The notes below the pieces were generated by a model. It worked only from the letters and a program-made list of their open reading frames with translations. It was not told where the DNA came from and made no database searches. Shown piece after piece: positions 4,531 to 46,148 of a DNA stretch of 64,000 nt. The DNA is from Escallonia rubra. Lineage: Eukaryota > Streptophyta > Magnoliopsida > Escalloniales > Escalloniaceae. How positions within the stretch are numbered: the first letter of the stretch is position 1; the number at the start of each line of letters is the position of its first letter. Location of the stretch: positions 1-64,000 of the forward strand of contig JAVXUO010001888.1 of NCBI GenBank assembly GCA_033065855.1, written 5' to 3'. The position numbers and the translations under genes are program-made.

Positions 4531-7500
4531 CTAAGTAGGATAATGGTAATGAAGCCATCTAGCTTCATTTTTTTTCAGCTCCCAGGCTATCCTATACCTA
4601 AACGTCAAGGCAGCCTTCCTTGTCCACGACGTATATCTGAGCACCTCCGAGCGAGCAATGTAGTCCATGTACTTGAGGACGTAAATCCCGCAATCATGAC
4701 TGTTATATTGCTTTGGTCGGTCCTGTATCGTCTCGACCGTCCAAGGATCTACCGTCGAATTCCTGGTGATGGATTCCCCCGAATAATCTCGGCACGCTAG
4801 CGAGAAGATAGTAGTCTGCATCCAACAATTAAAAAAGGTCATCAATATATGTTACGATAAGAATATACTATGAGCCAAGGTCAACCGATAAAAACTAACC
4901 ACTGCAGTGATGTACTCGCTGTATGTCTGTGCCAGCGACCGAAAGGGAGAGTCCTCCCGTAGGCTATCGTATATGTTGACCACTCTGTTCGCTGGATAGA
5001 GAACTAATAGGAACCAGTGGTGTTCGTGATGGCAAGGCATCATGACAAGGTTCGCATGAGCAGCGTGACATTGATTCTCTGCGGTCAACAGGGCTAACAA
5101 GTTTCTAGCTGGTTTCCACTTACCCATGCCTGCCCCTCGCCTCCTCGATTCTGTGAACTCCCTCATGCTGGTCACCATTAATGGGACAAGATAAGTGGGA
5201 TACATGTTAAGCTTCAAATCTTCGCGATGGTTATAACGTAGCTCTCTAATCCGGAGCAGATCTATATAAGCGTTCATGACAAAATTTGAAATATCTGTCT
5301 CCGGTGCCAACATTCTCACATCCGTGTGACCTAGCAATGTTCCAAGAGGAAAGTCTGTTGAATCGTTGACAGGCTCAGGCCCGAAGTAGTGCTGGTCGAT
5401 CCAACCCCGCTTCCATCGCCCCAATGGCTTTGTCGCTTGTCCTTTATCCGACCGGTTTCTTGGGCGCGAGGCCTGGATTCCTACTTGGGTCACCTGACTC
5501 TGGCGCTGAGAGTCGTACGTGTCAGGAGGCAAGCGACTAGACGGCTCCCAGAATTCACTCTGGGGCACAAAGTCGTACGTGTCAGGAGGCAATCCACTAT
5601 TCGGCTCCCACACCTGACTCTGGGGCTGAAACCCGTACGCGTCAGGAGGCAAGCCACTAGACGGCTCCCACACCTGACTCTGGGGCTGTGGGATGTACGC
5701 GTCAGGAGGCAAGCCACTAGACGGCTCCCACACCTGACTCTCGGGCTGTGGGATGTACGCGTCAGGAGGCAAGCCACTAGACGGCTCCCACACCTGACTC
5801 TCGGGCTGTGGGATGTACGCGTCAGGAGGCAAGCCACTAGACGGCTCCCACACCTGACTCTGGGGCTGGGGCTGAGAGCCGAACGGGTCAGGAGGCAAGC
5901 GAGTAGACGGTTCCCCTTGGTAACCCCGGTACGCAACACCAAAGTTGTGAAGATCAGTCTTGTACGACTCAACGGAGCTCTTGAAACTGTCAGGCGCATG
6001 CGCGACATACCAGTCAAACCGCTCGAGCTGCTTGAACATCTCAGTGCCCTTGTCAACCTACAAACATGCATAGAAAAATCACCGTCATCATTTCAGGCAT
6101 GGTCGAGAAGGTGCGCAAATCAATATTGAAACGACACTCAAGCTGACTTACAATGCTCAATGCCCAGAACTGGTCATAGACCTCACGTGGCGCGTACGAT
6201 GACGTCCTCACTTCGGAAGGGCGATTCACCCTCGTGCGCGTCACCCTGAGAAACCACTGTAAGTATTCCTCAGTACTGGTGCCGTCGTCCTTGAGCGATA
6301 CAAGGCTATCATACGTTTCCTGCCAGGTATTCCACTGATCCACCTCGTCACCCAACAAAATCAAGGCATTAGCCACCTCGAAGTTCGGCCCTCGACCACC
6401 CCTGTATGGCCGCATGTCTACAGCGAGTTTTGGAATCCCTTGTGGACAGCCAGCTTGCTTCATAGCTCGATCGGGCATCTGAAACTCACATACTTCGAAA
6501 TGAATAAGTGGCACCCGAACCAAACCTGCCAGCACGTACGACACCGGCAGTTGCCAACACGTCTCATCCAACCGATGCATCACCTTCCCATATGGCTGCC
6601 ACGTCACCAGGGATGCATCCATCATATCTAGTTCCCCCCGATAGAACATTAGATTGTGGTGAGGGTCTACCCGTTTAGTCCGTCTGGGCCTAGGCCCCCA
6701 GGCCCACACCCTAGGCCACGTCTCATCGGAATCAGCTACGGGCTGTGGACGACCCGTGGGTAGCCTCTCGTAAGACCAAACCTGTGAATGCAAACATTAT
6801 TTTTTAATTAGTTATTAATCACGAATATATTGACACGTCAACGAAGAATATTAATGCTCAAACCTGTAACAGAGTGATGCAGGCGGCAATGGACTTGGCA
6901 CCCTTTCTCGTAGCTTTGTGCAATGCTCGATATAGGTGCGCAAGGACAGCTGAACCCCACGAATACGAGTATACCTCCCCAAGATCCTCCAAGAACACCA
7001 AATACTTCGGATGCACCGTGTTTTTTTTTGCGTCGGAAGTAATATAGATCCAATAATATACAAAAGGAATGCCTTCGTATACACCGAAAAATCATGAGGA
7101 GTGTATTCATCCGGTAGCTCGCCGTACTGCTCTCTCAGCCATTTAAGTTTTATGCCGTTGGTTGTAAGAGCTTCCCTTGGAATTCCCGGAAAATACTGCA
7201 TAGCCATCTTCGCTATGGATGCAGACCCATTACCCGAAGTAATGGGTCTACCGTGACATGGGATTCCAAGTATAAATCCAACGTCCTCTAATGTAATAGT
7301 CATTTCACCAAACCGGAAGTGAAATGAGTTCGTCTCGCCCCTCCATCGTTCAACTAGAGCAGATATAAGGCAATCGTCGTGCCGAGCCCAAATCCCGCAA
7401 TCGGTGAACACCGTCAAATTTTGATCTCGCAGTAGTTCTATTTGTTCCTCATTCAGTACCCACTCGGAATGGCCACTTGTGCTTTGACGTGTTTCCAAAA

Positions 7501-7594
7501 CACCCCTATCGACACCGTTAAATACGTGCCTCGCGACGTGGTCATCGTCATCGTATAGGATTGATGTATCATGAGGTCCAGGGTTGAAATCCAT
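4531..7594 (-). pseudogene. PMD (plant mobile domain)-Ulp1-like C48 protease gene, frameshifted (MULE1)
   Basis: A four-exon gene. Inferred exons are 7594-6864, 6781-6152, 6057-4900 and 4815-4531, all with GT-AG borders. Exons 1-2 encode the PMD domain (MDFNPGPHDTSILYDD start, GEMTITLEDVGFILGIP, DPHHNLMFYRGELD, PLIHFEVCEFQMPDRAM). Exon 3 has a Pro/Ser-rich repeated linker and the first half of a Ulp1-type domain with His in HHWFLLVLY and Asp in NIYDSL. Exon 4 supplies Gln and Cys in PKQYNSHDCGIYVLKYM, so the catalytic residues are complete. The A run at 7020-7028 is one base short of keeping exon 1 in frame; past it the expected PMD sequence continues in another frame. This is either a true one-base lesion or an assembly error. 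PMD-Ulp1 fusions are known passengers of plant transposons; the substrate (SUMO or ubiquitin-like) is unknown. Confidence 0.85.
5510..5900 (-). repeat. 60-bp minisatellite coding the PMD-Ulp1 linker (MULE1)
   Basis: About seven in-frame 60-bp units (starts near 5521, 5581, 5641, 5701, 5761, 5821, 5881) each encode a 20-residue Pro/Gln-rich unit with the core PSSGLPPDAYIPQPESQ. The central units are almost identical, indicating recent expansion. The other frames across this block are also open but are shadows of the repeat. Confidence 0.9.
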
Positions 7595-7599
7595 ATCTG

Positions 7600-8928
7600 T
7601 AAGAACAAAATATAATCGTACATTAACTTAGCGTCCATAATATTTACATTCCAAAACTGTAACTGAATCGTTAACCTAGCTTACCAACGCAATAACAATA
7701 GTCATTAAATCATTACTTTAATGTATGAAAACCATTCCTCACTTCCAACGACTCCGAACGCTTAATAACCCTAGCCGCCTTCTCTAGGTTTTGCTTACAT
7801 TTACGGACTGAAAAGGCGCTCGAAAAAGTTGAAAGGGGCAAAATTACGAAAATACCCTTCTCGGGCGGCGAATTACCAAAATGCCCCTGGCATCGGGAAA
7901 AATCTCAAAAGTTCTTTAAGACGCTATTCTAAGGTTGCTGAGTTCATCCTTGGTCTAAAAAGCATTTTAGGGATTTTTTGTCAAAAAATTCCCGAACCGG
8001 TGTCCGGATCGAGCGCTTAAAAGCCCGTTCGGCAATAAATTGCTACCGGCTTCGGAATGGCCCGGATTCCTGGGGAATGGCACTTCCCAGTCTTCGCTAG
8101 GGTGTGCTTACATTTACGGACAGTATTGACGCTCGGAAAAGTTGAGAGCGTGAAATAACGAAAATACCCCTATCGGGCGGCAAATTACCAAAATGCCCCC
8201 TGGCATCGGGAAAAATATCAAAAGTGATTTAAGACGCTATTCTAAGGTTGCTGAGTTCATCCTTGGTCTAAAAGGCATTTTAGGGATTTTTTGTCAAAAA
8301 ATCCCGAACCGGTGTCCGGATCGAGCGCTTAAAAGCCCGTTCGGCAAAAAGTTGCAACCGGCTTCGGAATGCCCCGAATTCGTGGGGAATGGAACTTTCC
8401 AACATCCTTAGGGTGTGCTTACATTTACGGACTGAAAAGACGTTCGAAAAAGTTGAAAGCGTAAAATTACGAGAATACCCCTATCGGGCGGCGAATTACG
8501 AAAATGCCCCCTGGCATCGGGAAAAATCTCAAACGTGCTTTAAGACGCTATTCTGAGGTTGCTGAGTGCATCCTTGATCTAAAAAGTAGTTTAGGGATTT
8601 TTCGTCAAAAAATTCCGAACCGGTGTCCGGATCGAGCGCTTAAAAGCCCGTTCGGCAAAAAATTGCTACCGGCTTCAGAATGGCCCGAATTCATGGGGAA
8701 TGGAACTTTCCAACATCCTAGGGCTCTCAAAAAAATTTCGCGCGAAACCGCGCTAGCTTGATATTTTAAATTAGACTGCGAAGTTACAAGGTTGCGCGTA
8801 TCAGTTAACCCCTTTCCAGTATTTGAAAAAATCTGAAATTTTTACCTGATACAGATCTTTTAAAAATAACTAGGGTCTCTTTTTTGCACTTTGGTAAAAT
8901 CTAGCTCTAGCTATTTTTTATAAATTCA
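7600..8928. repeat. MULE1 right terminal inverted repeat with three 312-bp subunits
   Basis: Three tandem units of about 312 bp (about 7785-8095, 8096-8407, 8408-8760) are the reverse complement of the left-end units. The right end has one full unit more than the left. The outermost part, 8761-8928, mirrors positions 1-180. Small open frames inside (7829-8020, 8193-8411, 8504-8761) are the same repeat translated and are not genes. 7600-7785 is AT-rich 5' flank of the PMD-Ulp1 gene. Confidence 0.88.
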
Positions 8929-31514: not shown

Positions 31515-33198
31515 TCAGGGGTTCCCGGGTCCCGGATCTGGATCCTGCTGATCCGGGGCCGGGGCGGCCTGTCCAGCAGTGCCCTGCTCCCTGATCATCC
31601 GGCACACCACTGTAGCAATGCGCTGGATCTCCTCATCGTCCAACTGAGGCCGAGGCGCCGGTGTCTGTGGAGGGGCAACAGGGGGTGAGGACGCTCCTAT
31701 CACGGCACGAGCAGTCGTGCTAGGCAGGCCGCGTATGCGGCCTTTCGGCCGATTCACGACCTCCGGCGTATCCAGCCATCGCTTCAACCCCCCAGTACTC
31801 GCAGCCGTACTAGTGGACGCTGATGGCTGTCCGGACTGCTGCTCGGACCCCCTTAGCTGTTCATACGAGGCCTGCAAAAATAGTGGTTTAACGATATGTT
31901 AGGGCATTAATTAACGAAACAGACATTGAGGATAGAAAGAAAAAACATTAACTTAAATAAATTGACTCACATCGATCCGTCGGGCAATATCTGAAATATA
32001 GTCGCCCGCCCGGTGCGTCTCGTCCTTGTCCTTCTTCCGCACGTGCGTCTGAGTATAGGTCAGAGCTATGACCTCATCCTCCTCCAGATCCGGGTGCTCG
32101 ACCGCGTTCATGTGTCGGATGATGTCGTGTGGCACCGACCCCCCCATGTGCGTCGGATCTCGGTTCTGTCTGTTCTTAGCCCCGCTCTTACTCTTGGTGT
32201 CCCAATCTGGATCCGTAGCCCACCGATCTATCATCTGCCCCCATACACGGTGAGATATCCAATGTGGGGGATATCTCGCCATGTCCGTCATCGGGGCACC
32301 CGCGGGCAGCTCCTTCTTTGCCCGGTCCCGTGCATCGTGGAGCCATCGGCGGTAATTCTTGCCGATGTAGGCAAAGAAAGCCTGCTGCCCCAGTACCTGC
32401 TGCTGAGGCGTGTCAAACGTGAACCCCTCCTGTAAGGCATTCAATAACACAAATTAACAACATAAAACAAACTGCAATTTAACATTTACTAACGCTGAAA
32501 AAAATACTTCACCGTACCAGCCACTCCTCCCATAGGGCCTCCCTCGCAGCGGCATCCCAGTCCTTCCAGTACAGGCGTGGCTCGAAGAATCGGCCCTTCA
32601 CAAGAACGCCGATCTTCGTCCTCGCCTTATTCTCTAGGATCCTGCCAAAGAAGTAATTAAATTAATTAATACAGTTCAAATATAAATTAACACCCCAAAA
32701 TTTTAAACCTAAGGCATAAGGTGATATTTTTAGTACTTACAGGCCCTCCTGCGTGAGCGTAACTCTCTGTTTACGCTGGGGGTCGATGCGTACCCCGCGT
32801 GTCGGACCACGGCCTCGTCGAGATCCTACAAAAGACAGACATTAATACAGTTCAAATATAAGGCTAGCGAAAATGTACGAAACACCGTTATCAACTATAC
32901 CTGAGGTAGAATCCACGGAAGATGCAGAATGCACATGCGTGTGGGATGAATCTGCGTCGGGCTGGGGCGACGGCTGGGGCTGGGGCGACGGCTCGAGCTG
33001 GGGCTGGGGCGACGGCGATGGCTGGGGCTGGGGCGACGGTGACGGCGACGACTGGGGCTGGGCCCCCGATGGCTGTCCGCGATCACTCTGTTCCTCGTCA
33101 TCAGTAGGCAATGACGAGGTGGGACTAACCGGGGAGGAAGCAGCTCGGCGTCCAGCCCGACCACGAATAGCCCGTATCCTATCCATATCTGACTTCAT
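31515..33198 (-). CDS. Transposase_24 (Ptta/En/Spm, TNPA-like) protein of CACTA1
   Basis: Five exons with GT-AG borders are inferred: about 33198-32901, 32826-32742, 32642-32519, 32431-31970 and 31872-31515, giving roughly 440 residues. The N-terminus is Arg-rich then Pro/Ser/Gln-rich with a short tandem repeat at about 32960-33060. Exons 3-4 carry the Transposase_24 core: LVKGRFFEPRLYWKDWD, FFAYIGKNYRRWLHDARDRA, ARYPPHWISHRVWGQMIDRW, KNRQNRDPTHMGGS. The C-terminus includes LDDEEIQRIATVVCRMIREQ. This is the usual second CACTA protein, thought to bind the subterminal repeats and assist the transposase. No stop is visible in the exons. The start could also be the Met codon at 33186. Confidence 0.82.
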
Positions 33199-33261
33199 AT
33201 AGATTATATACAAAGACATTAACACGTGAAAAACAATAATTTAGGCATACATCATCATCGG

Positions 33262-33319
<58 letters not shown>

Positions 33320-33321
<2 letters not shown>

Positions 33322-33513
33322 GAGCTGATCCCTTGACCGCGTAGGCAAAATAGGATATCTTGCCAGCGCGATCTGGCCGTCCATCCCGAAGGGATGGACG
33401 GTCCAGATCACTTTTTTTTGCGGCGCTGTCAGTCGTCCGCTACACAGTCTCGCGGACGGAAATTTTTACCATCTTGCCCTCGCTCCCCCGTCCGCTACAC
33501 AGTCTAGCGGACG
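33320..33513. repeat. MULE2 left TIR
   Basis: Identical to the reverse complement of 42030-42223 over 194 bp. It contains an internal hairpin at 33371-33409 (arms of 17-18 bp with one bulged base around a GAA loop) and two copies of the GTCCGCTA...TAGCGGAC palindrome. Two more palindrome copies follow just inside, at about 33537 and 33624. A leader exon is then likely, with a splice donor CAAG|GTAAGTTTG at about 33787 and a 5' UTR intron running to about 34100. Confidence 0.95.
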
Positions 33514-34157
33514 GAAACAACCTGCGACAAAAAGTAGTCCGCTACACTGTCCAGCGGACGACTGACATTCTGACACAATTGTGACTTGTCTGACACAAGT
33601 GTGACTTGATGTCGGCAATTCTGTCCGCTACACAGTATAGCGGACAGTATTGCCCATCCCCTTTCTTTCAGCACAATTTTCTTCTACTCAATTCTTTCCG
33701 CACAATTTTCTTCTCCTTCAGACTCGCTTCCATTTTCAGCTGCCTTCAAGCTTCGAGTAACACTTGCTTCAAGCTTCGCTCAAGCAAGGTAAGTTTGCTT
33801 CAAGTTTTCTTGATGTTCTAGAAATTTGTCACTGTATTCATCAATTTGTGATTTTATACTCTAGATTTTTTGTGATGTTCTAGACATGATGTTCATCAAA
33901 AAGGTATAATTTGTTAACTTTATATTTAATTCATTATAGTTTAATTCGATTTTTTGGCATGATGAATTCGTCTATTTATCTTACTAATTTAAATTTGTTA
34001 TGTTCAATAAATTTAAATTAGTAATTGTTAATTTGGAGACACTTTTGAGATTATGCATACCGTATGTTTGCCATCCTAATTTTTAGGTAATATTTTCAGT
34101 TAGAAATGCCATTTGATTGTTAAGCGCAGTCTATTTCTACACAGCTCTTGTTTCACA

Positions 34158-36455
34158 ATGTCTGATTTCGTGTCGAGCTCCAACGTCCCCGTAGATGCTA
34201 GTGATCCGTATCTAGGACGAACATTTGCTACGTTGGAAGAAGCTGAAGATTGTTTTCGAGCGTATTCATTGAGGGTTGGTTTTGGCATTAGAATAAAGAC
34301 TTCAAGAACGAGCACCATAACGAGAAAGATATGCTCTCGCTTATACGAGTGCCATAGGAGCAGAAACCCAGTGCAAAATGAGACATGTGTAGGCAATGAT
34401 GACAGTGAGGACGAAATAGGATATCCGCGTAGAAGACGGGACTGCTTTGAGCGCACAAATTGCCAGGTCAAGATGTTCGTAAGCTACAAACCCAAACAAG
34501 ACCATTGGCTTATTACCAGCCTGGAACTGGCACACAATCACCCGTTAGTAACCCCTTCTAAGGTGAGTGAGATGCATCAACACAAGAAGATGGGTAAGGT
34601 CGCAAGGAGCCTGATTCAGACAATGAGCAATGCGCGACTAGGACCTACCGACATGATTAATGTTCTTGCTGAACAGGCTGGGGGAATTCAAAATTTGACC
34701 TTTAACACGACAGACGTTCGTAACGCGGTCCGAACCCATAGACGAGCCGCGTATGACCTCAATGATGCTCAAGCCACAATGAGCCTATTGAAACGGATGC
34801 AGATGGAGGACCCGCAGTTGACCTTCGATTATAAACTTGACGACGAGCATCGAGTTAGCACAATTTTTTGGGTCGACGGTCGTTCGAGGCTTGCTTATAA
34901 GCATTTTGGGGATGTCGTGACGTTCGACACCACATACCGTACCAACAAGTACTCGATGCCGTTCGCCCCTTTCACGGGGGTCAATCATCATTATCACTCC
35001 ATCCTGTTCGGGTTCGCCTTGTTAAGGGACGAGACCGAGAGTTCTTTTGAATGGTTGTTTAGGACGTGGCTGGAAGCAATGAACTTCAAAGCACCCAAAG
35101 TGATCATCACCGATCAAGATTTGGCAATGAAGAAGGCTATTGCGACCGTCTTCCCAGACACTCGGCACAACTTGTGCACCTGGCACATAAGCAACAAATA
35201 CCCGGAACGGCTGCATCACGTGTACGCAAAGTATCAAGACTTTAAACAGGATTTTGACAAGTGCGTCCTCAAGTCGTTAACGATTGAGGAATTCGAGGAG
35301 AGGTGGGAAAAGCTTGTTCGGGATTACTCATTGCAAGACAACGAGTGGCTCCAGCACTTGTACGAGCGCAAAGAGCAATGGATTGGCGTTTACACGAGGA
35401 GGTATTTTTCAGCGGGCATGAAAACGACGGGCAGGAGTGAATCCATGAATGCCACGTTCGATAGTTATGTGGGTACAGCTACCAATTTGAAGACTTTCGT
35501 TGCATCCGCACAAAAAGCGGTAGCTTCGTTGTTCGTAAAAGAAAGGGCTGCCGACTTTGCAACAACGTACAAACAAAGGAGAACGTTGCTCGAGACCCCG
35601 CTGGAGATGAACGGTGCCAAAGTCTATACGAAGGAGATCTTCTTGCTATACCAAGTAGAGCTGCGAAAATCCGGACGATACAGTATAAACAAGGTGGCAG
35701 AAATGTCTACGCGTGAGTACAAGGTTTATTCGCTCGTGAATGACCTAGTCCCTGAGAAGCTGCGCAGAATGTATACGGTGAGCCACGACACATTGACGGA
35801 CTCGGTGACATGTGTTTGCAAGAAGTTTGAGTTCCATGGCATCCTGTGTAGACACGTTCTGCGGTTTTTCACCCAGAAGAATATCAGGACAATCCCCGAT
35901 AAATACGTCTTGCCACGGTGGACAAAAGGTGCAAACAGGTTGCACGGTACCATTTCCTTTCCGGAGCACCCGTATACTGACTTTGAAGAATCAGAGACGC
36001 TGCGGTATAATCATCTGGTGACGATGTTCACCCGTTTGTCCGTAAAAGGTGCTGCTACAATGGTCGGTTATAAACATCTCCTCGAGGTAGCTCAGCAACA
36101 AGAGCCCATCGTCGACCAGTTGGAAGCAGCTTCAGTCACCAATGCGATTGACACCGAGCCTACGACGGGGGTATCAGAAGATGACGAGCCGGAGGAGGAA
36201 GACGACAATGATATCCGTTTGTTGGATCCAATTATATCGCAAACGAAAGGCCGCAAGAGATCTACGCGGATGAAAAGCTCTATTGAAACGGCAACTCAAC
36301 CTAAAAAGCTGCGAAGGTGTGCATTGTGCAACAAAATGACCGACCACGACAAGCGGAACCATTACAAGGCACTGGGGATAAGTTCAAGGGGTTTGCAAGA
36401 CGGGGAAGAAGGTGACGCCGAAGATGAGGACGAACAAGCTGCAGTGGACCTATAA
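34158..36455 (+). CDS. FAR1/FHY3-like MULE transposase (MULE2)
   Basis: An open 765-residue protein; the Met at 34158 is preferred because its first residues align with the MULE1 protein, although an in-frame Met lies at 34113. The FAR1 DNA-binding domain covers about residues 18-135. Catalytic acids are D257 (VVTFDTTY), D319 (VIITDQDLAM) and E428 (GRSESMN). The SWIM finger uses C552, C554, C564 and H566. The tail repeats the basic KGRKR block and the CALCNKM...HDKRNH cluster of MULE1, then becomes acidic. The two transposases are clearly homologous although the element ends are unrelated. No lesion is visible. The expected role is binding and cutting of the MULE2 TIRs. Confidence 0.94.
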   Translation: MSDFVSSSNVPVDASDPYLGRTFATLEEAEDCFRAYSLRVGFGIRIKTSRTSTITRKICSRLYECHRSRNPVQNETCVGNDDSEDEIGYPRRRRDCFERTNCQVKMFVSYKPKQDHWLITSLELAHNHPLVTPSKVSEMHQHKKMGKVARSLIQTMSNARLGPTDMINVLAEQAGGIQNLTFNTTDVRNAVRTHRRAAYDLNDAQATMSLLKRMQMEDPQLTFDYKLDDEHRVSTIFWVDGRSRLAYKHFGDVVTFDTTYRTNKYSMPFAPFTGVNHHYHSILFGFALLRDETESSFEWLFRTWLEAMNFKAPKVIITDQDLAMKKAIATVFPDTRHNLCTWHISNKYPERLHHVYAKYQDFKQDFDKCVLKSLTIEEFEERWEKLVRDYSLQDNEWLQHLYERKEQWIGVYTRRYFSAGMKTTGRSESMNATFDSYVGTATNLKTFVASAQKAVASLFVKERAADFATTYKQRRTLLETPLEMNGAKVYTKEIFLLYQVELRKSGRYSINKVAEMSTREYKVYSLVNDLVPEKLRRMYTVSHDTLTDSVTCVCKKFEFHGILCRHVLRFFTQKNIRTIPDKYVLPRWTKGANRLHGTISFPEHPYTDFEESETLRYNHLVTMFTRLSVKGAATMVGYKHLLEVAQQQEPIVDQLEAASVTNAIDTEPTTGVSEDDEPEEEDDNDIRLLDPIISQTKGRKRSTRMKSSIETATQPKKLRRCALCNKMTDHDKRNHYKALGISSRGLQDGEEGDAEDEDEQAAVDL

Positions 36456-36602
36456 TTTTTTGTACAACTTTATGACATTTGTAATAATATTCGAGGGATA
36501 ATTTTTCGACGGGGTACTGGGATTTTTTTAAAATGGACCTATGAGAGGCCATCGAATCAAATCTAAAGTCTTTATTACGAGGTTTTTCTTTTATTTTGTA
36601 AT

Positions 36603-36836
36603 CCCCGTCCGCTATACAATGTAGCGGACATCATTGACTTTGGTCTTTTACGTCCGCTATATTGTATAGCGGACGGGTGGCATCGAAGTAAAACTTTTGG
36701 TCTTTGTACGTCCGCTATACAATGTAGCGGACGTTAGAGCAGGCAAACTTTTGGTCTTCTTTACTGTCCGCTATATAATATAGCGGACGTCATAACTTTT
36801 GGCCTTTCATGTCCGCTATACAATGTAGCGGAGAAG
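36603..36836. repeat. Five palindromes upstream of the B3 gene
   Basis: Five copies of GTCCGCTAT.CAATGTAGCGGAC or a close variant lie at about 36606, 36652, 36706, 36762 and 36808, with spacing of 44-56 bp. They fill the gap between the transposase stop and the B3 gene. The arms GTCCGCTA/TAGCGGAC are conserved while the middle varies, as expected for a protein-bound or structure-forming site. Confidence 0.9.
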
Positions 36837-36979
36837 TCTATATGATATAAATTAATCATATCGGGCAATCGGCTGTTATCAGTCCAACAGTCTCTCTGCT
36901 CTCTCTGTCTGGAACATCTAGCCCAGGCCAATACTCCACAACTCCGGCGATAAACCGTCCCCCCTCAACGCCGACCTCG

Positions 36980-37443
36980 ATGGCTTCTGGATCGGAGACC
37001 ACCTACGATTTTATTGGCAACTTGCACCTGGCAGGCAAACACTTTTTCAAAGTCATGATGCCGGGGTTTGAGAATGAACTTGTATGCCATCCCTCTATCT
37101 CTGTATTTTCGTGTGTTAACTCTTTTGGTTAAAAACTAACCTATTTTTTGTGTATTGTGTTTGTTAGGACATACCGGAAGCCTTCACCAATCAATTTACA
37201 ACAATTCATGACAGTGCAAGATTATATAGCCGCAAGGGGGCATGGCAGGTTGAAATCAAGCTGAAGCCCGGCCGACCCCAAAAAAAGCAATTCGCAGAGG
37301 GTTGGAACGTCTTCGTGCGCCAGCATGGCCTCGAACTCGGGGACTTTGTAGTATTTGAACACCTTGGGTGGTGGGATTTTGAAGTTGTAATCTTTGATCG
37401 GAGCACTTGTGAAAAAATTTCTTTCCCCCAATGTGAACCCTAA
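36980..37443 (+). CDS. Stand-alone B3 DNA-binding domain protein carried by MULE2
   Basis: Two exons, 36980-37081 and 37168-37443, are joined in phase 0 across an 86-bp GT-AG intron and encode 125 residues that are almost entirely one B3 domain. Family marks include KHFFKVMMPGFENEL, then DIPEAFTNQF, then WQVEIKL, FAEGWNVFVRQHGLELGDFV and FEVVIFDRSTCEKI. It looks most like a REM-type B3. No other domain is present, so it would act as a DNA-binding factor or as a competitor for sites. An AT-rich TATATGATATAAATT lies about 130 bp upstream of the ATG and a CT-rich leader follows. The reading frame and splice sites are intact, arguing for a kept function rather than a dead captured scrap. Palindromes lie on both sides. 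What it binds is unknown. Confidence 0.87.
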
Positions 37444-37556
37444 TTTATGATTAATAAAATTATTTGAGTTCTTGTTGATTGTGTTTCGAAATTTTTCCTC
37501 GCTTAATTGTGTCGTTTGAAATACACTTTTGTTATAAACACTTCGAAAAATTTGGA

Positions 37557-38642
37557 TTTTACGTCCGCGATACAATGTAGCGGACGGCGCAGCAGAAACT
37601 TTTGGTCTTCATTTCACGTCCGCGAGACAATGTAGCGGACGGCGCAGCAGAAACTTTTGTTATCAACACTTAGAAAAATTTGGTCTTCATTTTACCTCCG
37701 CGATACAATGTAGCGGACGTCGCAGCATAAAACTTTGGTCTTCATTTTACGTCCGCGAGACAATGTAGCGGACGACGCAGCAGAAACTTTTGTTATCAAC
37801 ACTTAGAAAAATTTGGTCTTCATTTTACGTCCGCGAGACAATGTAGCGGACGACGCAGCAGAAACTTTTGTTATCAACACTTAGAAAAATTTGGTCTTCA
37901 TTTTACGTCCGCGAGACAATGTAGCGGACGACGCAGCAGAAACTTTTGTTATCAACACTTAGAAAAATTTGGTCTTCATTTTACGTCCGCGAGACAATGT
38001 AGCGGACGACGCAGCAGAAACTTTTGTTATCAACACTTAGAAAAATTTGGTCTTCATTTTACCTCCGCGATACAATGTAGCGGACGGCGCAGCAGAAACT
38101 TTTGGTCTTCATTTTACGTCCGCGAGACAATGTAGCGGACGACGCAGCAGAAACTTTTGTTATCAACACTTAGAAAAATTTGGTCTTCATTTTACGTCCG
38201 CGAGACAATGTAGCGGATGACGCAGCAGAAACTTTTGTTATCAACACTTAGAAAAATTTGGTCTTCATTTTACGTCCGCGAGACAATGTAGCGGACGACG
38301 CAGCAGAAACTTTTGGTCTTCATTTTACGTCCGCGAGACAATGTAGCGGACGACGCAGCAGAAACTTTTGTTATCAACACTTAGAAAAATTTGGTCTTCA
38401 TTTTACGTCCGCGAGACAATGTAGCGGACGACGCAGCAGAAACTTTTGTTATCAACACTTAGAAAAATTTGGTCTTCATTTTACGTCCGCGAGACAATGT
38501 AGCGGACGACGCAGCAGAAACTTTTGTTATCAACACTTAGAAAAATTTGGTCTTCATTTTACCTCCGCGATACAATGTAGCGGACGACGCAGCAGAAACT
38601 TTTGTTATCAACACTTAGAAAAATTTGGTCTTCATTTTACGT
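37557..38642. repeat. 15-copy palindrome array of MULE2
   Basis: Fifteen copies of a GTCCGCGAGACAATGTAGCG-type core, ending in GAC, are each followed by a GCAGCAGAAACTTTTG tail. They alternate between spacings of about 78 bp (with TTATCAACACTTAGAAAAAT) and about 56 bp (without it). Units are nearly identical, with a variant core CCTCCGCGATAC in several. The array starts 114 bp after the B3 stop codon and ends inside the truncated Ulp1 domain. Open frames across it are translated repeat. It resembles a direct-repeat array but has no unique spacers, so it is not CRISPR. Confidence 0.95.
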
Positions 38643-41447
38643 CATCAGAAAAATCAGTATTCGACAATCGTCGTGGAGACTGTCGATCACCGATACGACT
38701 TTAGTTGTTGGGGAGTAGCAAACCAAGTACCAGTGGCTGTGCCCTAGAAATGGGATTAGAAACACATCGGCAACACTTGCGCTCACCGGACTATCCCTAT
38801 TAATATATGCTCCTAGGTTAAAGGACGGTCTCCACTGGGCCAACTTTTTCTTCCCCCTATGTTCGACCCACTCCTGCCATTCAGACACTAGCATCTGATG
38901 AAAAAAGGCATCGAACAGAAAAACGGCCGGATAGCTCGGCTGCTGCCGACACCTTTCCCTCAGAATCTCCACGTAGGTGGAGACGACACCGGTGTCTAAC
39001 CAACTCCCCGGAGCCAGCGAGGCCAGTTCTCCCCACGAGCAAATGTAATCCATGCCCTCCGGATGATCCACACTATACAACGCTTGGTCATGCGGGACGC
39101 CGCTAAAATAACGCTCTCTGATTATCTGGCATTTCTGCGGCTTTAGGGGCTTCAACGGATGCCCTTTGCGATATTGCCCTCGGGGGTCGACCGGGGGGTA
39201 TTGCACTCCTTCGGGGGGGTCGACCGGGGGGTATTGCACTCCTTCGGGGGGGTCGACGGGGGGATATTGCACTCCTTCGGGGGGGTCGACGGGGGGATAT
39301 TGCACTCCTTCGGGGGGGTCGACGGGGGGATATTGCCCGCCTTCGGCAATAGATGGTCCTGCCCACGGGACAATGGGCAGACTGATGTTTCCGAAAATCC
39401 AGTCTTGCGTGACTTGACTCTGGGAGAGGGGTTGGGGTTCCGAATCCAATCGTAAAGAGAAGGAGGGCGCACTGTAATAATCCCACGGCGCTTGAGCCTG
39501 GCCCATGGTGCTTGGCGGTCCCCAATCACCAGCCATCTCTGGTACAGAGGGAAAACCATATCCCTGGCTCACTCCCGAAGTCTGTCCCGAGGGATCGGTG
39601 CATCCCTCGGGAACAAACGGCCGCTGCCACCCCGGATAACCCATTCCCGGGTTTGGCTGTCCCGATGCTTGCCGCAAAAAATTCCCGCAGCCAAGCGCCA
39701 ACGCTTCAGCCTGTTGGCGAAGCTCCTCGCCCATGGCATCCACCAAATCCTTCCGCTCGCTCAACTTCTGGAAGAAGGCGAACGAGGCATTAACCTACAT
39801 CCAGAGAGATAATAAATAAGTAACTTCGTACACACTTAGAATGATCAAGTTCAATTAGAAGCACTGGTTGGGCAACTTACCAGATTGTATGCCATGTGCT
39901 CATCGATCTGACCCCTAGGGTGGTACTTCTCCCCGCGTTCAAACCTTACTGGAGCTACTCTCCTCCGGGTGATGCGGTAGTACCACTCGTTGTACTGTTC
40001 GATACTGATGACGGGGTCAGGCTCCGACACAATGGCCGCCAGCGTGTCCTGCCAAGAATTCCAGACCTCAATTTCACGCGCGCACAACTCGTGCGCATTC
40101 GCCCTGCCAAACAGTCCGACACCCGGTGGGTTCCTGTTAAGCCTCATATCTGGCGCACCGGCTGGCAACCCCTGCAGGCAGTCAAAATGGCGCATAGCGC
40201 GATCCGGCAGCTGCCACTCTGCGACCTCGAAGTGGATCAGGGGTGTGCGTTGCAACCCGGAGAGCGTGAAGACGAACGACTCTCCCACCCGTCGCGCCAA
40301 ACGTTTGTACGGTGCCCATCGCATCTGGCCAGGAGATAACGAGTCGAGCTCCCCCCGATAGTATGAAATGTTGTGATGGGGATCGTCTCTCCTCTCGTAG
40401 TGGGTTTCCTTCCGGCTGTACTCCCAGGCGCACAACCGAGGCCACACATTATCTGTTCCGTCCCTACGCCTGGGTGCGCCGGTAGCAAGGTGTTCATAAG
40501 ACCACACCTGAGAGCAAAGACATTGAAAAAAGTATCGTCAACATTTATTGTCCATTCAACAACAAAAAAAAACAACAAAGAGCACGTAATGAAGAATTGT
40601 ATGATATACCTGCAATAGCGAGAGACATGCACATATCGCTTTGGAGTCGGGCCTCGTTGCCTTGTGCAATGCTCGGTACAGGTATGCAAGAGTTGCTGCA
40701 CCCCAGGCATAATCCCCAACCTCAGCCAGGTTACGCAAAAACGGTATATATTTGACGCTGACCGTGTTCTTCGACGTCGTTGGGAATAATATTGCCCCCA
40801 TCACCCACAAGAGGAAGGCTTGTGTGTACAGCACAAGGTCATGGCCCGTATAGTTTTCCGGCAAAACCCCGTAGGTATCTACCAACCACTTCAACTTGAT
40901 ACCACCACTGCTAAATCCATCCTGGGGTACCGAAGTAAAGAAGTCCCTAGCGGTCCTCTTATTCGTTGCTTCGGACGGATGAGCTATTACCGGCCGCCCC
41001 GTCACCGGTAACCCTAAGATGAACCCTACATCTTCTAGGGTAATTGTCATCTCTCCGAGAGGGAAGTGAAACGTATTCGTTTCACTTCTCCACCTTTCAA
41101 CAAGGGCACCTATTAAGTGCCGGTCAAGTTGTTGAAAGATCTGCCCATGCGTGAAAATCCCAAACCCAATCCCACGCAGTAATCTTTTCTGGGTTCTGTT
41201 CAATTTCCAGGCGTTGAAATTATCGCTTACTTCTACCGTGTTGACAAGTGCTCTTTCCTACGAATTAATAAATATTATTTAAGCAAAATAAACACTATAC
41301 AACGTTCGCAACTGAAATACGTAAGCAAAATAAACGATATAAACGATAAAATAAGTATCTTACTCCACCATCCCATATGAGCGTACTGATATGGGATGCT
41401 TGGTCATATAATACGGACGAATCTTCTGGTCCAGGGTTGAAATCCAT
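38637..41447 (-). CDS. PMD-Ulp1-like gene of MULE2, protease end truncated
   Basis: Inferred exons are 41447-41364, 41257-40610, 40507-39881 and 39794-38637, with GT-AG borders; a 5' UTR intron (about 41676-41466) is also likely. The start MDFNPGPEDSSVLYD and the motifs GEMTITLEDVGFILGLP, PHHNISYYRGELDSL and PLIHFEVAEWQLPDRAM match the MULE1 PMD protein. Exon 4 has a Pro-rich repeated linker and the first half of a Ulp1 domain with His in HSHWYLVCY and Asp in VIDSL. The frame then runs into the palindrome array and stops, so the Gln/Cys part found in MULE1 exon 4 is missing. The PMD part is intact and probably expressible; protease activity should be lost. Confidence 0.85.
39180..39344 (-). 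repeat. 33-bp minisatellite coding the PMD-Ulp1 linker (MULE2)
   Basis: Five in-frame 33-bp units encode PPVDPPEGVQY. They sit at the same place in the protein as the unrelated 60-bp repeats of MULE1, between the PMD and Ulp1 regions. Confidence 0.9.
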
Positions 41448-41869
41448 TTTTTGCAACTGAAATAATGGAAAGAGGGCAAGGTTGGAAGCGTAAACATTCC
41501 CAAACATACAACGCTAGCATATTCAGCGCTAGCATGTGATCAGATAATACGCAATACACATATATAATATATATGTATATACATTGACAAACGCTAGCAT
41601 AGTGCCTATCTACTTGCCAACGCCGCAAGATGAACTCTAGATTATGAACAAAGTAAGGATTAGTTTGTGAACTTACGTGATTGATGAGACGATTAAAGGA
41701 TTTCTTGCAAAGAAATTGCGCCGATCTACTTGCCAACGCCGCTGGTTTGATCGTGAGAAGAAGGAATAGTTTGATTGTGAGAAGAAGGAATAGTTTGATT
41801 GTGAGAAGAAGGAATAGTTTGATTGTGAGAAGAAGGAATGAATAGAAGTTTAGAAGTATTCGAATGCTT

Positions 41870-42220
41870 GCCAACGTCCGCTACACTGTGTTGCGGACGC
41901 TGGGATAACGACAAAGTAACAGACGTGCATCGACTGATGTGACAACTGTCAGGGGGAAGTGGGTGGTTTGACGGACAAAGTCGTCCGCTAGACAGTGTAG
42001 CGGACTACTTTTTGTTGGCCCAAGAATGTCGTCCGCTAGACTGTGTAGCGGACGGGGGAGCGAGGGCAAGATGGTAAAAATTTCCGTCCGCGAGACTGTG
42101 TAGCGGACGACTGACAGCGCCGCAAAAAAAAGTGATCTGGACCGTCCATCCCTTCGGGATGGACGGCCAGATCGCGCTGGCAAGATATCCTATTTTGCCT
42201 ACGCGGTCAAGGGATCAGCT

Positions 42221-42223
<3 letters not shown>
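41870..42223. repeat. MULE2 right TIR and subterminal palindromes
   Basis: 42030-42223 is the exact reverse complement of the left TIR. Four palindrome copies lie at about 41876, 41981, 42031 and 42085. Just inside, at 41740-41840, a short repeat TTTGATTGTGAGAAGAAGGAATAG occurs four times in the likely leader of the PMD-Ulp1 gene. Confidence 0.93.
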
Positions 42224-42255
<32 letters not shown>

Positions 42256-42335: not shown

Positions 42336-45300
42336 TCAATCATTTTCAGTTTGCGAATCATCTTCATCACTTTCCTCGTCGCCCTCTTCTTCGTGGGACT
42401 CGTCGTCCTCTTCATCTTCTAATTCATCCTCTTCATCAGTAGACTCGGTCACATCATCTCCAACACTTTCAACATCTTCCGCGTCATCATCTACGACTTC
42501 TTCTCCCACAAGAAGTGTTGTTGGAAGAGGAAGATCGTCCTCCTCGTTGTTGACCTCAACAGGGAACAAGACACGTGGTTGGTCGGCTTGAAAGGAGTCT
42601 AGCTCACTGTCATATGTCACGGGCAATTTCTTGGACTTGATAGTTGTATACCAATGAGATTTGGGATTGGCGACGTCCTCCGCGTAAAAGACTTGTACAG
42701 CTTGACTAGCAAACACAAAAGGCTCGTCTGATGCAAGTCTTGACTTGACATTGACATCTACAATCCCTTGAGAGCTAACACGGATTCCTCTACTGCATGT
42801 GACATCGAACCACGTACACTTGAACATTACCAGGCGGTTTTGGGAACCCAGATATGTTAGCTCAACAATCTCATCTAGCTCTCCGTAAAAATCCATGCAA
42901 TTCTCGGCATAACAGTCGCCGTTGACCAAGACTCCACTGTTTTGGGTTTGTTTTGTTCGGTCATCATCTTTTACGTTAAACCTAAACCCGTTGATGATAT
43001 AGCCTCCGTAACAGGATGTTTGTTTGTTAGGGCCTTCGGCTAGTAATTTCAAGCAGGAGGCCACTGGTCTATCCATTGACTGAACCTATTGTAGATGACG
43101 GTAAAAATTAAGGATAAATCAGTATACTAATTGGCCACAGAACTGTATATAACACATAATATAATTTCGTTAAATAATCTTACACGGATTTTGAACCACT
43201 GTACAAATTGTGATTTCCGATGAGATTCAAGTCCAGCGGGATCAGTGATTAAAGATTCCGCATCGAACTCACTGCAAACCAATATGCATTTAACTCGCTT
43301 AACACACACTTTCAATTATGTACAGCAATGTAAGTGAATTAAGACTTTAACTTACTCAACGAATGCCGAAACTTCATCGCAATTTAGAAGGGCATATATT
43401 GTTGCAGCACTGTACTCTTCATCTGTTAGCCATCGAGTATACGTTCGGCCGAACGGACTACCTGACTGCTTGAATATTGACAATTGCCCTTCCAAATTTG
43501 TGCTTGCTCCGGGATCATTTCGGCCTAGTTGATTTAACCTTGTACCAACATCAGGCCCGAAATATTGACTACAAAAGTTTACAAGTTCTTCCATTACGTA
43601 AGCCTCCGCAATTGAGCCCTCAACCCGAGCCTTATTACGGACTTTTTTCTTTAAATGGAACATGAACCTAGAAGTTTAGCGAATCGAGTTAGGTGGAATA
43701 TCAATGATAACAGATGTCGCATTAAGTGTAAACGAACAACTGTAACAATTTAAGGATTACCTCTCGAAGGGATACATCCACCGATATTGCACGGGTCCAC
43801 CCATCTTAGCTTCATATGCCAAGTGAACAGGCAGATGCTCCATTGAATCAAAGAACGAAGGTGGGAAGATTTTCTCCAGCTTGCAAATCGTCACCACAAT
43901 GTTCTTCTCAAGCACTTCCATGTTACTCACCCGGATCGTAGAAGAGCATATATCTCGAAAGAAATGAGATAATTCAGTCAAAGTCTCGCAAACAACCCGT
44001 GGCAACAGTCCCCGGAAGGCAATAGGAATGAATCTCTCCATGAATACGTGGCAGTCGTGACTCTTCATCCCTTGGAACTTGCATTCCGATACATTGCAAC
44101 AACGAGATATGTTGGACGCAAACCCATCCGGAAGCTTCAAATTCTTAACCCACTGACAGACCTTCTCCACTTGTTTCTTGTCTAGACAGTAAGGTGCTTT
44201 CGGAAGTATGGTCCTCCCACTGACTGTCCGAGGATGCAATTCACGGCGTACACCCAACTGTTGTAGATCCCTTCTCGCTTTAAGGTGATCTTTCGATTTG
44301 CCCTTGACATTCATCACTGTGTTGAACACATTATCAAAAACGTTCTTCTCAATATGCATCACATCCATGTTGTTTCGGATAACGAGCGTCCTCCAGTAGG
44401 CTAACTCCCAGAAGATACAAAATTTTCTCCAGTTGTGCTCTTTCCCGAACCCTGCAATCTTCTGATCCGGCACACCCTTACCGTGTGGTATGTCAGTATC
44501 AAGTGCCTCCAGGTGTGAGAGTACTTCTTCACCAGATGGGTAGTCCAGTGTGACAACCTCACGCTCGATTGTCCCGTCAAATTTATCCTTCTGCCTACGA
44601 AACTGATGGCCCGGTGGCAAAAGCTTACGGTGACATCCGAACCACGAGGCCTTTCCGCCGTGCTTTAACGTATGACCGGGGTTCACGCCCATACAAGCAG
44701 GGCATGCTAGCTTCCCATGTGTGCTCCAGCCACACGTCATTCCCAATGCGAGGAAATCATGTATAGTCCACATCAAAGCAGCCCTCATCTGAAAATTTTG
44801 TTTAAGGGATGCATCATATGTTTCGACTCCATGATTCCATAATTGTTTTAACTCATCAATCAACGGCCTTAAATACACATCTATGTCCTTACCGGGACTC
44901 TTCGGCCCCGGAATAAGCAACGACAAGAACATATACGGCTTCTTCATGCACATGCCTGGTGGAAGGTTGTAAGGGACAATAATAACAGGCCAACAGGAGT
45001 AAGGCGTGGTAGACTGACCGAAAGGGTTGAACCCATCGGTTGCCAGACCAAGTCTAACATTCCGAACTTCCTGAGCAAAGACTGGATGCCTGCGGTCAAA
45101 CTCCTTCCACGCCTCTCCATCAGCTGGGTGTGTCAGCACATCGGCATCGTTGCTGCGAGTCTCACGGTGAGCCCTCATATGTTCAGCTGTACTGGAGGAG
45201 TAGTACATTCTCTGAAGCCGTGGTGTGACCGGGAAATATCGCAATATCTTCCATGCAATGTTTTTCTTCTTCCCTTTGTCCGGTTTGTACCTCGAATGAT

Positions 45301-45994
45301 CACATACTGGACACCGTGACAAATCCTTATTCTCTTTCCAGAATAATACACAATCGTTATTGCACGCATCTATCCGGTTATAGCTCAACCCAAGTTTCCT
45401 CATCATCTTCTTCGCGTCATAGTACGACGGCGGTAGCTTTTCACTTTCGGGCAGTATTTCTTTGATGAAGGTAACAAACTCGTTAAAACCTTTCTCACTC
45501 AGCCCGTGGTCTGATTTCAACTGTAATAACCTACTAACCGCAGACAGCCGTGTGTGTTTCGGAGCTCCATCCCACAGCGGCTCTTCCGCAGCTCTCAACA
45601 ACTCATAAAACTGATGAGCCCCCTCGTTCGGCGGTTGTGGACTGTCGTTACCCCAGTCAACATTAGCATGCCCAGCATCCATAATCATATCTCGAAAATC
45701 ATATTGTGCCGCCTCCCTAACTTCAGTTTGACTAGCCAGGTTGGACGACAATACTATCGTTTCCCCGTGCTGCGTCCACCTTGTGTATCCACCCATAAAA
45801 CCGTACCGACGAAGATGCCATTTTACTTCAATTCTTTTTCTCCAGTGCAACAACTCACATCTACCGCACGGACACCTTATCTTATCAAGGTCAACATGTG
45901 CAGGATGCGCATAAGCGAAGTCGAGAAATTCGTCAACGCGACACTCAAAATCTTCAGCATTCTTCCTTTTCATCCAACTTCGATCGACTGACAT
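42336..45994 (-). CDS. CACTA TNP2-type transposase (CACTA1)
   Basis: Four exons are inferred with GT-AG borders: 45994-43762, 43672-43356, 43272-43183 and 43087-42336, about 1,130 residues with no internal stop. The N-terminal transposase-associated domain (about residues 1-80) has RSWM and CPCGRC (41-46). The TNP2 domain follows with YYSSSTAEHMRAH, LATDGFNPFG, IIVPYNLPPGMCMKKPYMFL, HDFLALGMTCGWSTHGKLAC and DVMHIEKNVFDNVFNT. The DUF4218 region spans exons 1-2 (GMKSHDCHVFMERFIPIAFR, VHLAYEAKMGGPVQYRW). Exon 4 holds DUF4216 (NGFRFNVKDDD, FKCTWFDVTCSRGIRV, FASQAVQVFYAED) and an acidic tail. The protein should cleave the 13-bp CACTA ends. Its 3' end is about 110 bp from the MULE2 insertion. Confidence 0.94.
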
Positions 45995-46148
45995 GACGAC
46001 TGAATTATCGTACTGTATACCACCTTCAATTTATGCCCAGTGATTAGGCATTGCCGATGTAAATATCAATGCATGAATGTTACAACATGTCTACATATTT
46101 CCCCTCCACTCTTGAACAGGTAGTGGTCCTATCCCATTCAGAAAAGCA

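Follow-up and report, generated by a model that had tools for sequence, protein, structure and literature searches.

Why a MULE should carry a gene for a B3 DNA-binding domain, whether that gene is a resident part of the transposon, where it came from and what its product would do there are the questions raised by an 8.9-kb element (33320..42223) of Escallonia rubra. It was analysed within a stretch of 64,000 nucleotides (contig JAVXUO010001888.1, positions 1 to 64,000, here called the window). To our knowledge, few element-encoded proteins are known in detail for escape from plant DNA methylation. The element was assigned to the MULEs by its MULE-type transposase (PF10551, E=3.7e-33) together with terminal inverted repeats (TIRs), and its features are collected in Table 1. 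A second MULE of the same window, MULE1, encodes a transposase of this type as well as PMD-Ulp1, but no B3. A target-site duplication of 9-11 bp is a hallmark of MULEs; in the window copy any such repeat would be masked by the (TA)n on both flanks. The left flank was TA-rich in 5/5 fetched burst copies, four of them with clean (TA)n, and TA flanks were also seen at L048, at the window copy (both sides) and at the older copies L018, L022, L025 and L027. By the flanks sampled, which cover part of the copies, the family inserts into TA microsatellites.

Table 1. Features of the B3-bearing MULE and its flanks, in window positions
Feature	Position	Strand	Basis or remark
Left-flank (TA)n microsatellite	33265..33319	.	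probable insertion target; other copies with same flank type
Left TIR, 194 bp	33320..33513	+	100% complementary to 42030-42223; 2 dyad sites inside
4 dyad sites (2 in left TIR, 2 just inward)	33436..33644	.	
FAR1-type MULE transposase, single exon, 765 aa	34158..36455	+	open frame and Pfam
5 dyad sites, transposase-B3 interval	36608..36832	.	
B3 gene exon 1, 34 aa, including start of B3 domain	36980..37081	+	homologous exon in 34 other copies
B3 gene exon 2, 91 aa and stop	37168..37443	+	Pfam and comparison of copies
Tandem array (55/78-bp units), 15 dyad sites, amid convergent B3 and Ulp1 ends	37525..38643	.	
PMD-Ulp1 exon 4: tandem peptide repeats (39182-39346) and first half of Ulp1 domain, truncated	38637..39794	-	
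PMD-Ulp1 exon 3, PMD second half	39881..40507	-	E=1.5e-18; splice sites by eye
PMD-Ulp1 exon 2, PMD first half	40610..41258	-	E=4.1e-50; splice sites by eye
PMD-Ulp1 exon 1 (MDFNPGPEDSS...)	41364..41447	-	boundaries read by eye
4 dyad sites (2 in right TIR, 2 just inward)	41877..42107	.	
Right TIR, 194 bp	42030..42223	-	complementary to left TIR; 2 dyad sites inside
Right-flank (TA)n microsatellite	42224..42252	.	

An earlier, sequence-only reading had described perfect 194-bp TIRs, an open FAR1-type transposase, an intact two-exon gene encoding little beyond one B3 domain, and a PMD-Ulp1 gene; the first three descriptions held and the fourth held in part. The transposase frame is open from 34104 to 36455 with an ATG at 34158, matches Pfam MULE (E=3.7e-33), FAR1 (1.1e-12) and SWIM (5.3e-05), and was open and about 100% identical at 59/59 scored genome places (window copy counted). 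The two B3 exons are joined by a GT..AG intron and encode 125 aa with a single Pfam match (PF02362, E=1.5e-10; no further match up to E=1). Both halves of the PMD are present in the PMD-Ulp1 gene; the Ulp1 match of the window copy is weak (E=0.0026, under the curated cut-off, profile positions 2-116 of 217), and the gene breaks off at 38637, on the border of the tandem array, without the exon that holds the catalytic Gln...Cys. PF02902 occurs in two parts, one in the window exon (under cut-off) and one in the last exon of L025 and L026 (over cut-off). Truncation as a family-wide trait was rejected: the junction (40 bases) occurs once genome-wide at ≤2 mismatches, and copy C1211, 99.87% identical to the window copy across the first 4.6 kb, retains the catalytic exon with RPKQRNTSDCG.

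For the fold of the B3 protein, a model of its Escallonia herrerae relative P0001, standing in for the spliced protein of the window, was compared with known structures; it matched At1g16640 (E=2.7e-07), the TEM1-DNA complex (1.3e-05) and also the VRN1 B3 domain, from which the B3 protein is predicted to bind DNA. A homologue search confined to proteins that resemble B3 in length and have 5-residue words in common with it gave, beyond this genome, one close protein (P0001) and six distant ones.

The sequence-only reading had also named two signs of a one-off gene capture, namely family copies without B3 and neutral decay of B3. The first was not seen. Marker matches in the 566-Mb genome numbered 514 for B3 vs 539 for the transposase (controls 0), and the B3 frame was intact in 20/20 loci reached via transposase matches (20 taken from 58 other places), with GT..AG in all 20 and identical proteins in 17. 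The gene also sits at the same position in 18 older copies (L018, L022, L024-L039), which were picked by their B3 match; dyads (described below) are present there too, and the transposase adjoins B3 in 17 of the 18 (the exception is L031, with 2.6 kb available). A one-off capture is ruled out by the marker counts and the 20/20 retention: B3 is a resident gene, the permanent third gene of a MULE family that is recently and massively amplified and of which the window copy is a young member.

On the second sign the outcome was mixed. Among MULE copies with an intact gene (n=11) the B3 omega was 0.71 (p=0.036 vs 1), and it was 0.73 for 23 intact MULE and CACTA copies (p=0.011), a set that excludes the 12/35 without a 110-aa frame and in which intact splice sites were no criterion; with broken copies included (17 MULE copies) it was 0.84 and not significant (p=0.16). 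The missing frames fall on 8/18 older MULE copies and 4/16 others, and the intron GT or AG is lost in 6/35, five of them within the 23 scored intact (L043 and L044, not of the family, were excluded). Variant codons among MULE copies gave an N/S of 3.2-3.7 vs a neutral 2.6, with multi-hit codons counted as N, and coding changes among the 20 burst copies comprised three nonsynonymous and one silent. Strong purifying selection on B3 is thus unsupported by the omega values and the N/S count; constraint is weak (omega 0.71-0.84). Transposase omega was 0.58. Indels shared by at least three copies were multiples of 3 in 5/5 coding cases vs 2/15 in intron and 3'UTR (p=0.001), or vs 5/19 with the 5'UTR added (p=0.006), this threshold having been picked after the list was seen; at two or more copies the counts were 5/8 vs 5/20 (p=0.08).

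These numbers bear on the reading that B3 is a passenger, a gene acquired in a single capture that drifts while a successful element transports it. The near-unity omega of the whole MULE set, the frames lost in older MULE copies, the changed splice sites among the 35 compared copies and a B3 dN to other copies about 4x that of the transposase are what it would lead one to expect. Against it stand the 514/539 marker matches and the 20/20 intact burst genes, the frame preserved by shared indels, and the comparison of the window B3 with CACTA-type copies, where omega is 0.42-0.62 at a dS of 0.58-0.81. We consider a passenger unlikely.

As to origin, CACTA-type elements contain a homologue of the B3 gene, interrupted by the same intron, and MULE copies hold remnants of CACTA repeats past the B3 gene, adjoining the MULE repeats. 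In a protein tree rooted with six database B3 proteins, MULE B3 formed a single clade (99/94) nested within CACTA B3 (93/89, just under the program's star). The MULE copies were not one group in a nucleotide tree, L022 falling among CACTA copies with weak support; L041 and L042, whose B3 is degenerate and whose 2.6 kb showed no CACTA repeat, went into that tree under the label CACTA, and a single MULE clade was not rejected by the AU test (p=0.289). Transfer from MULE to CACTA is disfavoured by the rooted tree and the CACTA remnants. A direction from host to CACTA to MULE with one single transfer is supported, though not proven, by these comparisons: a REM/VRN1-like B3 gene of the host would have been captured by a CACTA-type element and passed once to the MULE lineage as a genomic segment that still contained the intron and some of the CACTA subterminal repeats, after which it diverged fast. 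Among the fetched CACTA-type loci the only CACTA transposase sequences were incomplete matches to tnp2, located close to the locus ends in L013 and L023, and no autonomous B3-CACTA was present; with no transposase gene inside the B3-CACTA elements, these loci look non-autonomous.

What the B3 protein may read is suggested by a 21-bp dyad, TCCGCTAYAYWRTRTAGCGGA (pattern TCCGCTA-N7-TAGCGGA), of which the window MULE holds 28 copies, none within its genes and 24 outside the TIRs; over both strands this makes 56 matches vs a chance mean of 0.13 for the whole window. Eight long copies of the family held 91 strict sites, none in gene-matching stretches, and the spacer is itself conserved (A9 99%, T13 98%) at positions that were not used in site selection. 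No dyad was found in the B3-less MULE1, and one loose match in the remaining 55 kb of the window. The CACTA-type B3 loci do not carry the MULE dyad (five loose matches in 127 kb, 13 loci), and their repeats have only TAGCG(G)ACG in common with it. The CACTA-type elements hold the repeat TTTTAGCGACGGA.

The dyad sites make it more plausible that B3 is a self-encoded regulator that uses the repeats of its element, as had been proposed from the first reading. The protein would be a transposon-specific factor recognising repeated sites in the noncoding DNA of its own element, with TCCGCTAYAYWRTRTAGCGGA as the best candidate site; bound to the repeats, it would raise expression of the element or counter its silencing, much in the manner of VANC in VANDAL and TnpA in Spm. 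Our preferred reading, which we hold tentatively, is therefore of a young MULE with a resident, CACTA-derived B3 gene whose product most likely reads the element's own repeats to such an effect. A more specific version appears improbable to us: a transposon-specific B3 lineage, domesticated from a host gene in CACTA as a reader of subterminal TAGCGACGG, then housed in an unrelated MULE with noncoding DNA full of TAGCGGACG dyads, where it would have provided its own anti-silencing and a recent, explosive burst of about 500 copies. Several observations temper the preferred reading. Constraint on B3 is weak; the MULE dyad is missing, loose matches apart, from the CACTA-type B3 loci; the dyad arms are constant although B3 exon identity drops to about 51-75%, unlike the prediction of simple protein-site coevolution; and repeat arrays of another kind occur in MULE1, which has no B3, so an array does not by itself call for the gene.

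The dyads might instead be read by the PMD-Ulp1 protein, in the manner of VANC or KIU, or by the FAR1-type transposase, with another or a minor role for B3. The PMD protein in particular, faintly VANC-like, is a serious rival as dyad reader, and we rate this explanation as rather unlikely overall. Its PMD exon overlaps a weak match to DUF1985 (E=0.025, under cut-off), a VANC domain (PMC5735166, available text), tandem peptide repeats are present in the protein (39182-39346 here, 5491-5868 in MULE1) and likewise in VANC variable regions (PMC5735166), and KIU genes with Ulp1 are classed as VANC-type in the available part of PMC13317346. PMD-Ulp1 is also under more constraint than B3 (omega 0.47-0.51, codon sets of 5 and 4 copies). 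Dyads do occur in the TIRs, the expected place of transposase binding, but most of those in the window copy lie elsewhere; and MULE1, with the same transposase type and PMD-Ulp1, has no dyad, the visible difference in gene set being B3, in a sample of one.

B3 domains are found in repressors as well as activators (VAL1, TEM1), and a 125-aa protein with a B3 match alone could compete for sites, so that B3 might target host genes or, as a repressor, restrain the copy number of its element, in place of an anti-silencing role. Hundreds of near-identical marker matches are unlike tight copy control, and we regard this reading as very unlikely.

Returning to a B3 that acts on its own element, what is new here is the B3 gene homologue with the same intron in CACTA-type elements, together with the 28 dyads in the MULE. 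No transposon-borne B3 gene turned up in the literature searched, whose coverage was limited; the term 'B3 domain' is absent from the available text of the review PMC13317346 and of a MULE survey, and in papers with both 'B3 domain' and 'CACTA' the terms were unrelated where checked. The family offers a natural experiment, with an amplified set of copies, an intact transcription-factor domain of plant type, a sharply defined candidate site, older relatives and a nearby MULE that lacks both gene and site. If the more specific, improbable version of the preferred reading were true, it would be a second, independent invention of a VANC-like system, spread across transposon superfamilies.

Among known systems, the insertion into TA microsatellites is shared with the MuTAnT MULEs of Medicago, of which one autonomous element has a Jittery-like transposase and for which the available text describes no accessory gene (PMC4486113), whereas the window MULE has B3 and PMD-Ulp1. 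The Ulp1 (C48) gene beside a MULE transposase recalls Kaonashi (KIU), with the window copy's Ulp1 truncated; KIU is described as non-TIR in the part available (PMC13317346), while here the TIRs are long and perfect, a PMD lies ahead of Ulp1 and B3 is added. VANDAL/VANC of Arabidopsis is alike in three respects, a MULE with an extra DNA-binding gene product (here predicted), a short motif enriched in the element's noncoding regions and in its tandem repeats, and an accessory protein whose conservation falls below that of the transposase (PMC5735166, PMC10398659, as far as their available text goes). By the same sources VANDALs are non-TIR, whereas the window MULE has 194-bp TIRs; VANC carries DUF1985/DUF287, whereas the accessory B3 protein matches PF02362 only; the VANC21 motif YAGTATTAY is a short one repeated in a single orientation, whereas the site here is a 21-bp dyad; and VANC binds its motif and removes methylation, whereas the sites here are candidates. 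MULE1 has the gene set of the window MULE, minus B3. TnpA of the CACTA element Spm/En is not known to be a B3 protein. It is an element-encoded protein linked to reactivation and demethylation (PMC10398659, available text), and the likeness is that the probable donor B3 gene here sits beside the subterminal repeats of a CACTA-type element; in contrast with Spm/En, the fetched B3-CACTA loci showed no transposase gene inside the element. The apparent transfer of a regulatory gene between plant transposon superfamilies compares with the TET/JBP genes, common to unrelated fungal DNA transposons and proposed to counter silencing (PMC12730594, in the part available): in both, a captured accessory gene has moved, apparently so in the plant case, between superfamilies, the fungal one encoding an enzyme and the plant one a DNA-binding domain.

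The anatomy of the window copy, as claimed from the sequence alone, was recomputed and largely held: the TIRs described as perfect are complementary over their full length, the transposase described as open is so, and the two-exon gene described as intact encodes a single B3 domain. Transposase and B3 run in one direction and PMD-Ulp1 in the other, so that the B3 and Ulp1 ends face the array. A (TA)n run flanks the element on left and right and, since CACTA-type genes lie on both sides, the insertion target of the window copy may have been a TA run within a CACTA element.

Features of the window copy, its neighbours, MULE1 (a second MULE in the window) and two older copies (L025, L028; positions within the fetched stretch)
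Feature	Position	Remarks
MULE element (window copy)	33320-42223	TIRs 194 bp, fully complementary
FAR1-type transposase	34158-36455	one exon; MULE, FAR1, SWIM domains (Pfam)
B3 gene	36980-37081 + 37168-37443	two exons, 125 aa, one B3 domain
Tandem array	37525-38643	1.1 kb
PMD-Ulp1 gene	41447-38637	strand opposite to transposase and B3; Pfam, exon ends by eye
PMD-Ulp1 linker repeats	39182-39346	tandem, about 11 aa each
Left CACTA-type neighbour	31515-33240	weak Transposase_24 match
Right CACTA-type neighbour	42336-46030	minus strand; tnp2, DUF4216, DUF4218
MULE1	22-8927	long terminal repeats containing 311-bp units
MULE1 FAR1-type transposase	1411-3660	50% identity to that of the window copy
MULE1 tandem array	3798-4362	167-bp units
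MULE1 PMD-Ulp1	near 4710	position of the catalytic motif
MULE1 PMD-Ulp1 linker repeats	5491-5868	tandem, about 20 aa each
Extra small frame	L028:4723-5154	+; no Pfam match
Extra small frame	L025:4687-5118	-
Extra small frame	L025:5484-5942	+; no Pfam match

The claimed PMD-Ulp1 gene is present, but in the window copy it lacks its catalytic exon: the Pfam match to Ulp1 spans the first half of the domain only, the frame stops at the array, and the additional exon with a Gln...Asp-Cys-Gly motif found in MULE1, L022, L025 and L027 (Asp-Cys-Ser in L026) is absent. Because the 40-base junction at the break occurs once in the genome, and because the one further burst copy checked for this exon (C1211, 99.87% identical to the window copy over the first 4.6 kb) retains exon and motif, the family encodes a complete PMD-Ulp1, the catalytic end of which has been lost recently in the window copy. 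The linker repeats of the window copy and MULE1 look unrelated in sequence. Older copies contain one or two additional small open frames between B3 and Ulp1 (144 and about 150 aa), and no counterparts of those of L025 and L028 were seen in the window copy.

Copy number was assessed in the genome holding the window (566 Mb, 3222 contigs). At least 59 places, the window's included, hold a full-length, open and about 100% identical transposase; this is a lower bound, 59 of 4771 candidates having been scored. At up to 2 mismatches, 40-base markers gave 539 matches for the transposase and 514 for B3, and reversed-marker controls gave none for either. The sequence-only reading had asked whether other copies keep the B3 gene, and they do: in all 20 copies fetched from the 58 other transposase places the B3 frame was intact with a GT..AG intron. 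The protein was identical in 17, carried Q122H in 2 and had two changes in 1 (3 nonsynonymous and 1 silent coding changes, a number too small for a test). Eight of the 20 stretches aligned poorly in their first bases, 5' of the B3 gene, probably from differences in leader length. The element has undergone a recent burst, and B3 is a permanent part of it.

From a genome-wide list of B3 matches, 36 stretches were fetched. Half of them (L018, L022, L024-L039) belong to this MULE family as older copies that contain both dyads and B3, and the transposase adjoins B3 in 17 of these 18 (L031 excepted). As they were picked via B3 they are uninformative on its loss; evidence on that comes from the marker matches and from the 20 copies chosen by transposase. 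The transposases of seven long older copies differ from that of the window copy by 0.16-0.27 silent changes per site. B3 of the window copy differs from that of L024-L028 by dN 0.20-0.24 and dS 0.30-0.38, where the transposase gives 0.05-0.06 and 0.16-0.17, and from that of L018 by dN 0.43 and dS 0.52. Since dS is raised as well as dN, weaker constraint alone does not account for the divergence of B3; accelerated mutation, exchange among copies or replacement may have contributed.

Low dN/dS in B3, proposed as a check, was found in part: codon-model omega was 0.71 for intact MULE copies (p=0.036) and 0.84 (p=0.16) once broken copies were added. The value was 0.79 (p=0.07) for intact CACTA-borne B3 and 0.73 (p=0.011) for the intact copies of both jointly, next to 0.58 for the transposase (p=9e-12) and 0.51 and 0.47 for PMD. 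Mean NG86 dN/dS among 23 intact copies was 0.65 within MULE, 0.55 within CACTA and 0.68 between them; a cruder count of variant codons in B3 revealed no constraint. 'Intact' refers to the frame only, irrespective of splice sites: 12 of 35 compared copies have no full frame, and the intron GT or AG is altered in 6, of which 5 are among the 23. Indels are more telling. Among those found in three or more copies, a threshold chosen after the list had been seen, 5/5 coding indels are multiples of three as against 2/15 in intron and 3'UTR (p=0.001), or 5/19 with the 5'UTR added (p=0.006); at two copies the figures are 5/8 and 5/20 (p=0.08). Because shared coding indels are multiples of three, the lineage seems to have preserved the frame, with residues loosely constrained.

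Of the remaining 18 stretches, 14 (L009-L017, L019-L021, L023, L040) carry a homologue of the B3 gene that lies in no MULE, all with the CACTA-type repeats TTTAGCGACGG/CCGTCGCTAAA. In L016 an element of about 3.7 kb runs from CACTACAAGAAAA to TTCCTTGTAGTG, with B3 the only gene recognised before any Pfam scan of its other frames; it looks like a non-autonomous CACTA element, and L012 and L021 show the right end too. L041 and L042 hold a third, degenerate type of B3 with broken frames, and neither MULE dyads nor CACTA repeats within the 2.6 kb fetched; L043 and L044 lie outside the family.

The MULE B3 gene is homologous to the CACTA-borne one, with common exon borders, alignable intron and alignable flanks. 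DNA homology between L016 and the MULE copies begins at or just 5' of exon 1 and stops past the stop codon in most, extending into the 3' flank in L018, L022, L029, L036 and L038. A CACTA subterminal stretch was matched by BLAST in L018, L022 and L036; in L018, TTCCGTCGCTAAAA...AATTAGCGACG and similar repeats were seen by eye to abut the first MULE dyad, and several other MULE copies have weaker remnants. In a protein tree rooted on six B3 proteins from the database (one outgroup row on a very long branch), the 11 intact MULE sequences form one clade (99/94) within a paraphyletic CACTA set, the nesting supported at 93/89, just below the program's star; the nucleotide tree did not recover a single MULE clade, yet did not reject it (p=0.289). 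These data support a transfer from CACTA to MULE, and the simplest reading is the order host, CACTA, MULE.

A word-based search of 5.8 billion proteins returned one close relative, P0001 of Escallonia herrerae (78% identity by BLAST, 92% across shared columns), and six distant ones at 39-48% from sources including Sesamum, Bertholletia, Cuscuta (two) and Cryptomeria. Pfam recognised B3 domains in two database proteins, P0122 and P0123, which are in our reading host REM/VRN1-type genes. The gene model of P0001 lacks the end of exon 1, probably because the splice site was misannotated; its structure model (eight aligned sequences, mean pLDDT 77) resembles solved B3 domains, among them At1g16640, VRN1 and TEM1-DNA.

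The window copy contains 28 TCCGC-type 21-bp dyads; counted on both strands they give 56 matches, where chance would yield 0.13. The array holds 15 of them, each end of the element 4, and the interval separating transposase from B3 the other 5; in eight long copies, none of 91 strict sites fell in a gene-matching stretch. The logo of 228 sites in 19 copies, many of them tandem copies and hence not independent, reads TCCGCTA-YAYWRTR-TAGCGGA. Its spacer is symmetric, though unused in site choice (A9 99%, T13 98%), and information is 1.1-2 bits inside, except at a few variable spacer positions, and 0.02-0.7 beyond 2-3 bases outside. This is the form expected of a candidate symmetric-dimer site. 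The CACTA half-site TTTTAGCGACGGA, which frequently occurs as facing pairs separated by 5-8 bp, and the MULE half-site TRTAGCGGACG have TAGCG(G)ACG in common, a suggestive likeness short enough for chance.

Which protein might read the dyad can be weighed against MULE1, which has PMD-Ulp1 and neither a B3 gene nor a dyad; this favours B3, with a sample size of one. The chief alternative casts PMD-Ulp1 as the VANC-like reader: the protein weakly resembles DUF1985 and carries tandem peptide repeats, which in both MULEs are like the variable repeats reported for VANC. That the dyad arms are constant when B3 changes fast and PMD more slowly somewhat favours this alternative. The odds of the rival explanations are not mutually exclusive.

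In the literature collection searched, B3 with MULE, CACTA, transposon or capture gave no transposon-borne B3 by title or start of abstract, and 'B3 domain' is absent from excerpts of a 2026 review (PMC13317346) and of a MULE survey. MULE insertion into TA microsatellites (PMC4486113, excerpt), Ulp1-bearing MULEs (PMC13317346) and, in fungi, accessory genes common to transposon superfamilies (PMC12730594, excerpt) are already known; the novelty is the combination. By analogy, B3 would bind DNA within the element and serve as a regulator or anti-silencing factor, a role made reasonable by two comparisons drawn from excerpts of the sources: VANC, with motifs in noncoding tandem repeats and a fast-changing accessory protein (PMC5735166, PMC10398659), as here with noncoding, tandemly repeated dyads and a fast-changing B3, and TnpA (PMC10398659).
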